From assembly GCF_000517445.1 (NCBI RefSeq), contig NZ_CP006965.1:968681-1032680 (forward strand): a DNA stretch of 64,000 bases. The letters run 5' to 3'. Each line of letters begins with the position of its first letter. Positions within the stretch are counted from its first letter, which is position 1. A program made the translations under genes and the position numbers. This stretch comes from Thermococcus paralvinellae (lineage in GTDB: Archaea; Methanobacteriota_B; Thermococci; Thermococcales; Thermococcaceae). Of this stretch, positions 42,577-46,479 are shown in pieces. The notes below the pieces were generated by a model. That model ran no database searches. It was not told the DNA's origin and saw only the letters and a program-made list of their open reading frames with translations.

Positions 42577-42611
42577 TATGATCACTAGACTTGCATGATG
42601 GAGGTGTAAAA

Positions 42612-43073
42612 ATGGAAAAGAAAAGGCTTTGTCGTGCAAAGGATGAGAGAGTATTTTTGGGTGTTTTGGGAGGAATAGCAAAGTATCTTGATGTCGATCC
42701 TACAGTTGTAAGGATAATCTATATTGTTCTACTGTTTCTAGCCCCTGTAACGGCAATACTGCTCTACTTCGTTCTAGCCATCATAATGCCAGAAGAACCT
42801 GAGGAAGAGATATCTCTCGACAAGTTGCCTGAAAAAGCGGAAAAAATTGCAAAAGAAATTGATAAAACACTAACACAAGCATTTAGCTCTAAAAAGCCAG
42901 CCCCAACAGTTAAAGATCACAACAATGAAAAGCTCCTTGCAATAATTTTAATTATTCTCGGCGGGGTTTTGATTTTAAGAAAGATAACTCCCTTCATGTG
43001 GTATCTCCAAGGAGACGTTCTTTTAGCAACACTGTTGATTCTATTTGGAATATACTTGCTGATGAGGGGGTGA
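42612..43073 (+). CDS. PspC-domain membrane protein
   Basis: The 153-residue protein opens with the PspC domain (FLGVLGGIAKYLDVDPTVVR, then two hydrophobic segments to FVLAIIMPEEP), followed by a soluble charged linker and a second membrane pair at the C-terminus (IIILGGVLILRKITP and LLILFGIYLLMRG). PspC proteins are membrane stress sensors in bacteria. Only four bases separate it from the next gene, a membrane protein with an adhesin-like beta domain. GGAGGTGTAAAA precedes the ATG. Confidence 0.86.
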   Translation: MEKKRLCRAKDERVFLGVLGGIAKYLDVDPTVVRIIYIVLLFLAPVTAILLYFVLAIIMPEEPEEEISLDKLPEKAEKIAKEIDKTLTQAFSSKKPAPTVKDHNNEKLLAIILIILGGVLILRKITPFMWYLQGDVLLATLLILFGIYLLMRG

Positions 43074-43077
43074 AAAC

Positions 43078-43947
43078 ATGGGAAGAACACTCGGACTTTT
43101 CCTTTTGTTTCTTGGAGCATTAATACTCCTTAAAAAGCTCTACCCCGAGACACTAACATATTTAGCTCCCTATGCTCATTACATAAAGGCATCATTTTGG
43201 GGTGTTGCTCTCGTTTGCTTTGGTTTATACTTGCTCTCAAAGAATAAAGCTTGGAGAACTACAATTAGTGTAATCTTTGTCCTCTATGTTGCCCTTTACC
43301 TAGTAATTCCTGACGTCAGCACTACTTCTTGGTACTCGATAGGAGATTGGTTTGCGGAGAAAATTGAGGGAGAAATGCACACCGTTGGAGAATTTCAAGC
43401 CTCTGAGCTGATTATCCAGAACATAGTGGCCGAAACTAAAATAGTAAGCACTGATGGGAACTCAATAAAAGTCACCTCAAATCTTCCTATTCAAGCAGAA
43501 GTAAATGGGAATGTCCTCATTCTTAAATGTACTAAGATGTGCAGCAGATATAAAAACGGCAAGCTGATTGTGGAAGTAGGCAAAGGACTCTTAAAGAGCC
43601 TTGAAATAAGCGACACTGTTGGAGATTATTATATAAATCTCAAAGACAGCCTAAGCCAAATCACGATAAAAAACACCGTTGGAAGATTCAGCATCTCACA
43701 GATGAGAAGTGAAAATCTTTATTTGAACGACTTCGTTGGGGATTTCAACATAGAGATTGAGGACTGCTCTCAGATTACAATAGAAGATGGAATCGGTGAT
43801 GTAACAATTGACATACCCTCAGAATATAAAGTGATTCCAGTCGTAAGAGATTCTGCAACAAAGCTTGAAATCAATTCCAATGAGAGTGGCACAAAGACAT
43901 TAGAGCTAACAATTGATAGCATAATAGGAAGAGTTAAGGTGAGCTGA
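43078..43947 (+). CDS. Membrane protein with LiaF/DUF4097-like beta-solenoid domain
   Basis: The 289-residue protein has four N-terminal hydrophobic segments up to about residue 90, then a soluble domain made of repeating short strands (e.g. SDTVGDYYIN, NTVGRFSI, NDFVGDFNIEI, EDGIGDVTIDI) with a regular spacing of about 20 residues. The pattern suggests a beta-solenoid like those of LiaF/DUF4097 proteins, which in bacteria regulate the cell-envelope stress response together with PspC-like proteins. It is co-transcribed with the PspC gene; GGGGGTGAAAAC is the ribosome-binding site. Confidence 0.8.
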   Translation: MGRTLGLFLLFLGALILLKKLYPETLTYLAPYAHYIKASFWGVALVCFGLYLLSKNKAWRTTISVIFVLYVALYLVIPDVSTTSWYSIGDWFAEKIEGEMHTVGEFQASELIIQNIVAETKIVSTDGNSIKVTSNLPIQAEVNGNVLILKCTKMCSRYKNGKLIVEVGKGLLKSLEISDTVGDYYINLKDSLSQITIKNTVGRFSISQMRSENLYLNDFVGDFNIEIEDCSQITIEDGIGDVTIDIPSEYKVIPVVRDSATKLEINSNESGTKTLELTIDSIIGRVKVS

Positions 43948-43952
43948 GAGAA

Positions 43953-44843
43953 ATGGAGAGGTGGAAAATAATTAAAGCTTTTACACTCGGACCCTTACTT
44001 GAGGCCGCAATCCCGAAGCCCGGCAATGTAAATAGGTTTAGAGATTTCGAGGATTTAACCCTTTATCATTTTCTCTTTGGAAATGTGGCCGTTGTTGATA
44101 TGCTCTATGAAGCAACAGAAGTGGGTAAATTAATTAGGAGAGGATATTATCAGCTAAGTGAAGCTAATATAGGAGAAATGATAAAGAGGGCTGTCCAAAA
44201 TGCAAAAACTGTGCAAGATGCAAATCCAAATTTTGGCATAATAGCACTGGAGATTCCTCTCGTAATTGCTCTAGTTATTTCAAGACATATCTATGATGCC
44301 AGAGAAGTTGTAAAAAGATTGATTGCCCACTCAACAGTCAGGGATACAATGGAGTTCTATAAAGCCATAAGAATTGCTAATCCTAAAGGAATAAAGAGTG
44401 GAGTTAAATATGATGTTTACGATGAGAATGTTTTTGATGAACTTTTTAAAGATAGGATTAACCTCAAGCGTTTAGCAGAAATCAGCTGTGAAAGAGAGCT
44501 TATCTTCTGTGAATGGCTCAACGGTTATGAGCTGAGCTACAAAACATTCTTGAGACTCAAAGAACTGACCGAAGAACTTAATCTTGAAGAAGCAGTTTTA
44601 AGAGCATTTCTTGAACTTCTAGCATCAACACCCGACACCCTTATTATCAGAAAAGCTGGAAAGGCTGAGGCTGAACTCGTAATGAGGATGGCAAAAGAAG
44701 TATTGGATGGAAATCTCAGTATTAATGAACTGGATAAATTCCTAAGAGAAAAAGAAGATTTAAGGAATCCTGGGAGCTTGGCAGATATAATGGCAATTGC
44801 TTTGAGTTTGCTAATTCTTGACGGCTACAAACTCAATCTTTAA
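43953..44843 (+). CDS. CitG-like triphosphoribosyl-dephospho-CoA synthase family protein
   Basis: The 296-residue protein is all-helical and has the CitG/MdcB family motifs: PKPGNVNRFRDFEDL near the N-terminus (phosphate loop), NPNFGII in the centre, and late NPGSLADIMA. CitG makes the prosthetic group precursor of citrate or malonate lyase. No lyase or malonate decarboxylase gene is visible here, so the archaeal protein may use ATP and another acceptor. It follows the PspC pair by five bases and converges with the DUF1884 gene (11-base overlap). Confidence 0.82.
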   Translation: MERWKIIKAFTLGPLLEAAIPKPGNVNRFRDFEDLTLYHFLFGNVAVVDMLYEATEVGKLIRRGYYQLSEANIGEMIKRAVQNAKTVQDANPNFGIIALEIPLVIALVISRHIYDAREVVKRLIAHSTVRDTMEFYKAIRIANPKGIKSGVKYDVYDENVFDELFKDRINLKRLAEISCERELIFCEWLNGYELSYKTFLRLKELTEELNLEEAVLRAFLELLASTPDTLIIRKAGKAEAELVMRMAKEVLDGNLSINELDKFLREKEDLRNPGSLADIMAIALSLLILDGYKLNL

Positions 44844-45117
44844 TTACCCTTATCCTCTTTGCTCCTCCCAGTCCAACTCCAAGCATTTTGGAGTCTATAA
44901 CAACGGCATCTTTGCCAAGCTCTTCAAGTAGTTTTACTTTTAAGCCTGAAATCTCTGTGACCTTTTCATCACCACCAAATTCCGCATCAACTTGAGCCTT
45001 TAAGAACTCATAGGCCTCTTTTCCAAAGAGAACAATATCTGGCTCAAAACCGTCCATCTTGAGTTCGTTGGCCTTTTCTTCAACTGCACTTAAAACCCTA
45101 ATCAGCTCTCCCCTCAT
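44833..45117 (-). CDS. DUF1884 protein: candidate Family 4 (A-domain) encapsulin
   Basis: The 94-residue protein (MRGELIRVLSAVEEKANELK..., FGKEAYEFLKAQV, GLKVKLLEEL, GVGLGGAKRIRVIKD) matches DUF1884 (PF08967), a small Thermococcales family. From memory of the large-scale encapsulin survey, these were classed as Family 4 encapsulins: the A domain of the HK97 capsid fold alone, encoded beside enzymes such as OsmC, GAPOR or a sulfhydrogenase. Here OsmC lies directly upstream on the same strand. AAGGTGATCTGA precedes ATG, and the 63-base gap contains a TATA-like CTTTAAATG, so it may have its own promoter. Capsid formation is not shown by sequence. Confidence 0.78.
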   Translation of the reverse strand: MRGELIRVLSAVEEKANELKMDGFEPDIVLFGKEAYEFLKAQVDAEFGGDEKVTEISGLKVKLLEELGKDAVVIDSKMLGVGLGGAKRIRVIKD

Positions 45118-45180
45118 TCAGATCACCTTGAAATAGCCTATGAAGTTCAAACATTTAAAGTTTTTCATGCTTGTAAAACT

Positions 45181-45576
45181 TCATTCATTGATGACCTCAA
45201 ATGTGTATGCAACCTCAGTTCCACTGAGCTTCAAATGGGCTGAGGCCGAGCAATATTTGTTTTGACTGAGTTCTATTGCTCGCTTAGCTTTCTCTGGCCT
45301 TACATTTCCATAGATTTTGTAGTGGATGTGAACCTTCTTGTAAATCCTAGGGTGTTCTTCTCTCCTTTCTCCACTTATCTCAACTTCAAGCCCCTCGATC
45401 GGCTCTCTCATCTTTTGGAGAATCATGACAACATCAATAGCTGTGCATCCGGCAACAGCCAGGAGGAGAGTCTTCATGGGAGAAATGCCCTTTTCGCCAA
45501 AGATTATCTTTCCACCCTCTTCAACACTTGCTTCAAATTTTCCATCTTCAAGCCACTTAACTTTCCCTGTTATCAT
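45181..45576 (-). CDS. OsmC/Ohr family peroxiredoxin-like protein
   Basis: The 131-residue protein carries the two family cysteines: the peroxidatic one in LAVAGCTAIDVV and the resolving one in NKYCSASAHL, with the arginine-rich ISGERREEHPR between. OsmC enzymes reduce organic hydroperoxides. ATG 45576 with GGTGGTC upstream is the family-length start; the frame continues open to 45726 but that extension has no family support. It is followed by the DUF1884 gene, so OsmC could be cargo of a nano-compartment. Divergent from a radical SAM gene. Confidence 0.87.
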   Translation of the reverse strand: MITGKVKWLEDGKFEASVEEGGKIIFGEKGISPMKTLLLAVAGCTAIDVVMILQKMREPIEGLEVEISGERREEHPRIYKKVHIHYKIYGNVRPEKAKRAIELSQNKYCSASAHLKLSGTEVAYTFEVINE

Positions 45577-45636
45577 TTGACCACCCAAAAAAATAATAGG
45601 AAAATACTTTTTAAATAGCTTTGTAAACTTTCCTTC

Positions 45637-46479
45637 ATGTATATAAGACCGTTTGACCCTTGGAAATCGAAACTCTGTACATGTCCTTTCAAATACACGC
45701 TGAACATTTACACGGGCTGTGACCATGCCTGTGTTTACTGCTATATAACCGCTTATATCCCCAAAGCTTTTAAGGTTAGAATTAAAGAGAACCTCCTTCC
45801 TAGTCTCGAGAGGGAGCTCAGAAAATTTGATAGAAGGTTCATAATTTCGCTCTCCTACTCATCTGATCCATACCCAACGATTGAGAGGCAATTTGGCATT
45901 ACACGAAAAGTTCTCCAGCTCTTCAAAAGATACAATATAAGATGCATAATTTTGACAAAATCAGATATTTTTGAGCGTGATTTGGACATTCTAAGAGAAC
46001 TCAAATGTGCTGTTGGCATAACAGTGACGACAATAGATGAAGAAAAAGCTAAGGCATTAGAGCCAAATGCGCCATCACCTAAAGACAGAATAAGAGCTCT
46101 AAAAAGAGCAAAAGATAGTGGAATTCCAGTTTATGCAAGGATAGATCCAATAATACCCTTTTACACATGGGGAGACTTTGAGGAAACTGTCAATGCATTA
46201 AGCTTTGTCTCCCATATAACAGTTTCAACTCTGAAGCTCAGAGCAGATTCATGGAAAAGAATGAAAGCGAAGTTTCCAGCACTCATGAAGAAACTTGAGC
46301 CACTATATAAAAGAGGGGAGAGAATTAGTGGATATTATTACCTACCAAGAGATTTCAGATTAGAGATTTTGGAAGGAGCAAGAAGGATCATTGAAGAGAA
46401 AGGGATTACCTTTGGCTCATGCAGAGAAGGCTACTATTTTTATCCTACGTGTGACGGCTCTCACTTAGTTCCTCTATAA
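45637..46479 (+). CDS. Radical SAM protein (spore photoproduct lyase-like, SplB group)
   Basis: The 280-residue protein has the cluster motif GCDHACVYCYITAYIPK around residue 30 and a long SAM-binding barrel (SYSSDPYPTIERQF, ITVTTIDEEKAKALEP). The CxxxCxxC plus YCYI pattern matches the SplB-like/Rv2578c group of unknown function. The N-terminal MYIRPFDPWKSKLCTCPFKY adds two cysteines. It appears leaderless: no ribosome-binding site, and TTTTTAAATAG lies about 26 bases upstream. Converges with the amidotransferase-like gene by 35 bases. Confidence 0.85.
   Translation: MYIRPFDPWKSKLCTCPFKYTLNIYTGCDHACVYCYITAYIPKAFKVRIKENLLPSLERELRKFDRRFIISLSYSSDPYPTIERQFGITRKVLQLFKRYNIRCIILTKSDIFERDLDILRELKCAVGITVTTIDEEKAKALEPNAPSPKDRIRALKRAKDSGIPVYARIDPIIPFYTWGDFEETVNALSFVSHITVSTLKLRADSWKRMKAKFPALMKKLEPLYKRGERISGYYYLPRDFRLEILEGARRIIEEKGITFGSCREGYYFYPTCDGSHLVPL

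Follow-up and report, generated by a model that had tools for sequence, protein, structure and literature searches.

A Family 4A encapsulin-like protein beside OsmC in Thermococcus paralvinellae: promoter and linkage evidence across the Thermococcales

Four operon types have been reported for archaeal Family 4 encapsulins; the pairing with OsmC is among them and often comes with a MarC gene, and the published partners of the family are NiFe hydrogenase, OsmC, GAPDH and DeoC (PMC8346489). Assembly of Family 4 proteins into facets or a shell was offered in the same work as a hypothesis, and the solved structure 2PK8 was crystallised as a dimer (PMC8346489). According to a 2024 review, Family 4 had not yet been experimentally characterised and a shell had been shown for no member (PMC11202242). 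Our literature search found no experimental work on Family 4, and no mention of DUF1884 beyond these two papers in the literature searched. The OsmC-4A pairing is already known, and what the present analysis usefully adds is promoter and linkage evidence.

The OsmC and 4A genes at the locus

The DNA analysed (the window) is a whole stretch of 64,000 nucleotides of T. paralvinellae (NZ_CP006965.1, positions 968,681 to 1,032,680), and the features around the 4A gene are as follows, in window positions.

43953-44843, plus strand: CitG-family (PF01874) protein, convergent with 4A (PF01874, 184.6 bits)
44833-45117, minus strand: Family 4A A-domain encapsulin-like protein (DUF1884/ENCP4), 94 aa (PF08967, NF041190 and 2PK8 matches)
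45122-45127, minus strand: GGTGAT, the ribosome site of 4A (from the sequence; GGTG lies shortly before the start in 77 of 87 genomes)
45153-45165, minus strand: AAAAACTTTAAAT, BRE/TATA-like promoter element for 4A (located with a matrix that was trained on the window's other genes)
45181-45576, minus strand: OsmC-family protein, 131 aa, YhfA-like, with both cysteines and no tail (PF02566, 61.9 bits; alignment of 70 orthologues)
45606-45620, minus strand: putative TATA-like element CTATTTAAAAAG of the OsmC promoter, in the divergent gap between OsmC and the radical-SAM gene (read from the sequence)
45637-46479, plus strand: SplB-like radical SAM protein, in divergent orientation to OsmC (orthologue: PF04055, 73.6 bits; PF20903, 27.9 bits)

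The original prediction had placed the OsmC gene directly upstream of the 94-residue gene on the same strand, and the open reading frames are as it described: OsmC ends 63 nt upstream of 4A, which starts with ATG, and both lie on the minus strand. The end of the 4A gene is overlapped by 11 nt by the CitG-family gene. Two adjacent small membrane-protein genes, PspC-like and LiaF-like by eye, occupy 42591-43947, and small genes similar to this pair come after CitG in many genomes of group g4 (genome groups are numbered g1 to g6). The OsmC start, an ATG at 45576, is preceded by the ribosome site GGGTGGT; a longer 181-aa OsmC frame in the mechanical ORF list was set aside, because the orthologues and this ribosome site favour the 131-aa start. 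The protein has the length, the fold family and both cysteines of the YhfA-like branch of the OsmC/Ohr family (2e8c, 1ml8, 1vla), and the cysteines, in AGCT and KYCS, are conserved in the 70-sequence alignment. Against the YhfA equivalog model NF008009 it scored 94.1 bits, below the cut-off of 138, and peroxidase activity of this branch is putative.

The locus resembles the published OsmC operon type of Family 4A (PMC8346489) in family (by two curated profiles), size, upstream neighbour and archaeal order. It differs from the published operon reading in that 4A has its own promoter-like element, the linkage is separable and OsmC has no cargo tail. The partners that the original prediction gave for DUF1884 agree with the published list as far as OsmC is concerned (PMC8346489), but ferredoxin-dependent enzymes in general do not stand, the published partners being the four named above.

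Family, fold and distribution of 4A

Profile search of the 94-aa protein, a check that had been proposed beforehand, matched PF08967.16 (now named ENCP4) with E 3.1e-31 and 107.8 bits (cut-off 31.4). The NCBIfam model NF041190 (encap_f4a) gave 161.4 bits (cut-off 90), while the 4B model gave only 43.5 bits. This bears out the assignment of the DUF1884 protein to the Family 4 encapsulin type and makes it specifically 4A; the Pfam text for PF08967 reads "4B", but the sequence of the 94-aa protein is 4A. The nearest solved structure by sequence was the Pyrococcus DUF1884 crystal structure with which comparison had been suggested, namely 2PK8, PF0899 of Pyrococcus furiosus (E 1e-29), and it was also the best fold match of the AF2 model (pLDDT 73; E 1.4e-9, TM 0.84). 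PF0899 is the orthologue of 4A; judged by Pyrococcus-like genomes, it differs in lying behind hydrogenase genes, in having probably a leaderless promoter and in a short N-terminal extension. After 2pk8, the fold search returned mostly HK97 capsids and encapsulins with weak scores (E 0.08-1, TM about 0.5), so that a common ancestry of capsids and 4A is argued from the fold and nothing else.

The model consists only of a helix, a strand, a helix and three strands. No P-domain, E-loop or N-arm, which are the shell-closing parts of HK97, was found in the 94-aa ORF or its model. Family 1 encapsulins (PF04454) are like 4A in their HK97-type A-domain fold, by structure only, and unlike it they have the full HK97 fold, a closed shell and cargo peptides; profile-profile comparison of 4A with ten Thermococcales family 1 proteins gave an hhalign probability of 4.7% with shallow alignments. 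These data bear on the published interpretation, shared by the original prediction, that 4A subunits would build a small shell, or pentameric facets, around OsmC and thereby a peroxide-detoxifying compartment. The A-domain fold of 4A fits it, but the missing shell-closing parts and the dimer in the 2PK8 crystal (PMC8346489) speak against it, and together with the promoter and linkage results below they make it quite unlikely in our judgement.

For distribution, 94 Thermococcales genomes were searched, 74 of them of good quality. A 4A gene above the cut-off was present in single copy in 88 of the 94, including all 74 good ones, and the 4A family was absent from all ten good genomes of the same phylum outside the order, which upholds the claim, within the phylum, that the family is nearly limited to Thermococcales. 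Most Thermococcales genomes have a second family copy, 4B, which is linked to DeoC or GAPDH, is paralogous to 4A and shares with it the motifs EL..G..P..L.G and EL...A...D....G. No 4B was found in the genome of the window (one contig, 99.9% complete), and match counts put it in all six genus-mates; one-match counts suggest that 4B is likewise missing from G074, G077, G079 and G093. The genome of the window also had no family 1 encapsulin and no close alpha subunit of the soluble NiFe hydrogenase SHI (best 42% identity). Since 4A is kept there while 4B, family 1 and a close SHI are all missing, 4A is retained where its proposed partners vary.

Alignment of 4A from 87 genomes revealed 20 invariant columns, regardless of the neighbouring gene. 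Nine of them are charged, and most of these nine belong to the N-terminal helix or the first strand. This pattern suggests one common interface whatever gene is next to 4A.

It is also conceivable, but extremely improbable, that 4A is a defence protein which joins and spoils the HK97-type capsids of infecting viruses. It is indeed an isolated capsid A-domain, and a viral fold search returned capsid proteins and small phage proteins; but 4A is universal, single-copy and slowly changing, as the invariant columns show, unlike patchy and fast-evolving defence genes. A search of phage proteins gave no sequence match, and PHROGs gave only one weak hit (E 0.036). The viral fold matches of the 94-aa model include uncharacterised phage proteins of 76-128 aa (weak, E 1e-3 to 0.03), with examples from Haloferax tailed virus 1 and from the Bacillus phages SP-15 and CP-51, and free-standing A-domain-like proteins may occur in tailed viruses.

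The promoter-like element before 4A

The gap 45118-45180, for which a test for a separate promoter had been proposed, does contain a promoter-like element, and its distance from the 4A start is nearly fixed across the order. The element AAAAACTTTAAAT is identical in all six g1 genomes, and the 4A transcript is expected to begin some 10-15 nt upstream of the ATG. The matrix trained on this AT-rich window finds the element and scores GC-rich relatives poorly, so we used a position test, in which the simple core YTTWA was counted before the 4A start in 87 Thermococcales genomes. The core starts at -46 to -30 in 82 of these 87 genomes, which are related and not independent, compared with 11.4 +/- 3.1 (maximum 20) in shuffles. 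Moving the range by a single base (-45 to -29) raised the count to 84, and four neighbouring stretches of equal size gave 3 to 15. The TATA-like core is present behind OsmC, MarC, hydrogenase and other upstream genes alike. A scan of the region for bacterial sigma-70 promoters and terminators gave nothing above shuffles; this promoter type is not the right one here.

Two groups of genomes differ in detail. In all ten g5 genomes (L146-L155) the OsmC stop codon TAA is part of the TATA-like core of 4A, and stop codon and promoter appear to share bases. In g3, which we called Pyrococcus-like from the hydrogenase-4A arrangement described in PMC8346489, the core is nearer the 4A start and eight of the nine genomes lack the GGTG site. 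This suggests that 4A, which in these genomes (L079-L086) comes right after the hydrogenase genes, is made from a leaderless transcript.

The same test gave another result for 4B. Ten DeoC-linked 4B genes (L002, L003, L004, L008, L017, L023, L024, L025, L028, L029) begin within the last codons of DeoC, with an overlap of 4 or 8 nt, and a TATA-like core at the 4A-type range is absent from all ten. With 82 of 87 for 4A and 0 of 10 for 4B, the position test separates operon partners from genes with a promoter of their own. In these ten loci the coupling of DeoC and 4B is much tighter than that of OsmC and 4A. Even with a promoter-like element before it, 4A may receive extra read-through from OsmC.

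Linkage across relatives and the role of 4A

Near the 88 4A loci, OsmC was found at 59, CitG, the most frequent neighbour, at 77 and hydrogenase at 8. Among the 83 genomes with enough sequence to judge, OsmC and 4A were linked in 59 and apart in 24. All 17 genomes of g1, g5 and g6 in which both genes were found have OsmC at most 150 nt upstream of 4A, so this is no chance neighbourhood. In 38 g4 genomes OsmC lies 0.7-3 kb from 4A, usually with MarC between, and several other g4 genomes have 4A with no OsmC, MarC or radical-SAM gene near it. G011 (99% complete) has 4A and no OsmC orthologue, only a distant OsmC paralogue. CitG is kept as the convergent neighbour of 4A in 77 of 79 genomes outside Pyrococcus, and 4A still faces CitG in the separated g2 and g4 genomes; the exception is g3, where 4A has neither OsmC nor CitG beside it. 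The radical-SAM gene is beside OsmC in all 59 linked loci and faces it in all 12 separated OsmC loci fetched (71 of 71 overall), and OsmC is paired more constantly with this SplB-like gene than with 4A.

On a quick tree from four concatenated proteins with missing data, the linkage changed at least 8 times for OsmC-4A, 2 times for 4A-CitG and once for hydrogenase-4A; the genomes are related and not independent, and these counts are minima, not a test. The contrast of 8 with 2 is modest, and the pairs compared with OsmC-4A are divergent or convergent, not co-directional.

The single hydrogenase change lies inside Pyrococcus and bears on the idea that 4A is an accessory factor of SHI, as its Pyrococcus position suggests, which sits elsewhere in other genera. 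In most g3 genomes 4A is behind four SHI genes, and most genomes of the order have an SHI alpha orthologue. However, 4A is kept in the genome of the window and in G089, where the best SHI alpha match has only 41-42% identity, and in G012, which is sister to the other g3 genomes, SHI is not beside 4A. We regard such a role as very improbable.

The original prediction had made OsmC the cargo of a peroxide-detoxifying assembly. OsmC upstream on the same strand with a 63-nt gap, the adjacency conserved in g1, g5 and g6 and the published proposal for the OsmC operon type (PMC8346489) all favour this, but the promoter-like element of 4A in 82 of 87 genomes, the separation in 24 of 83 with 4A kept, and G011 count against it. 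In linked genomes OsmC is 131-140 aa long, and the alignment of 70 orthologues showed no shared extension or targeting tail on linked OsmC compared with unlinked. The only shared tail, which gives 143 aa, occurs in Pyrococcus-like genomes, where OsmC is unlinked, and a single unlinked OsmC of g4 has 146 aa; the longest conserved tails are those of the unlinked Pyrococcus-like OsmC. OsmC as cargo of 4A is possible but disfavoured.

OsmC and 4A might also be partly co-expressed in a stress-responsive neighbourhood (C26, radical SAM, OsmC, MarC, 4A) without being physical partners. The block order is conserved in g1, g4, g5 and g6, and read-through across 33-63 nt is plausible; but 4A keeps its own promoter-like element, and it occurs apart from OsmC, MarC and the radical-SAM gene in the g4 genomes mentioned above. 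We consider this unlikely.

The reading we prefer, with a probability of about 0.62, is that 4A is an order-wide small HK97 A-domain protein with its own promoter, which is independent of OsmC and likely forms a small oligomer with a common partner, OsmC not being a dedicated cargo. 4A would be a stand-alone domain that folds like the A-domain of the HK97 capsid, one in essentially every member of the Thermococcales. Its own promoter, whose activity we infer, would drive its transcription, and it would act independently of OsmC. The protein would most probably be a small oligomer, ring-shaped or dimeric like 2PK8 in its crystal, and the strongly conserved N-terminal helix and first strand would bind a partner common to all these archaea. 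OsmC would be a neighbour of 4A within a conserved chromosomal segment with the order peptidase C26, radical SAM, OsmC, sometimes MarC, 4A and CitG. Two points weigh against independence: OsmC and 4A are adjacent in every g1, g5 and g6 genome that has both, which goes beyond a fleeting neighbourhood, and joint action of two genes does not require linkage.

A further step, tentative and a little short of even odds, is that 4A is a domesticated capsid A-domain, universal in the Thermococcales and expressed independently, that is part of no encapsulation system and serves a common cellular partner, with only 4B a true partner in an enzyme operon. If this is true, 4A and 4B, which have been published together as enzyme-shell operons, would need to be classified apart. 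Pfam and NCBI label the family as encapsulin shell from fold and gene neighbourhood alone; by the promoter and linkage tests, the argument from neighbourhood becomes weaker for 4A and stronger for the DeoC-linked 4B. The contrast between 4A and 4B indicates which of them merits purification with its neighbour first, and the own-promoter reading of 4A makes a simple prediction that is checkable in existing Thermococcales transcript maps.
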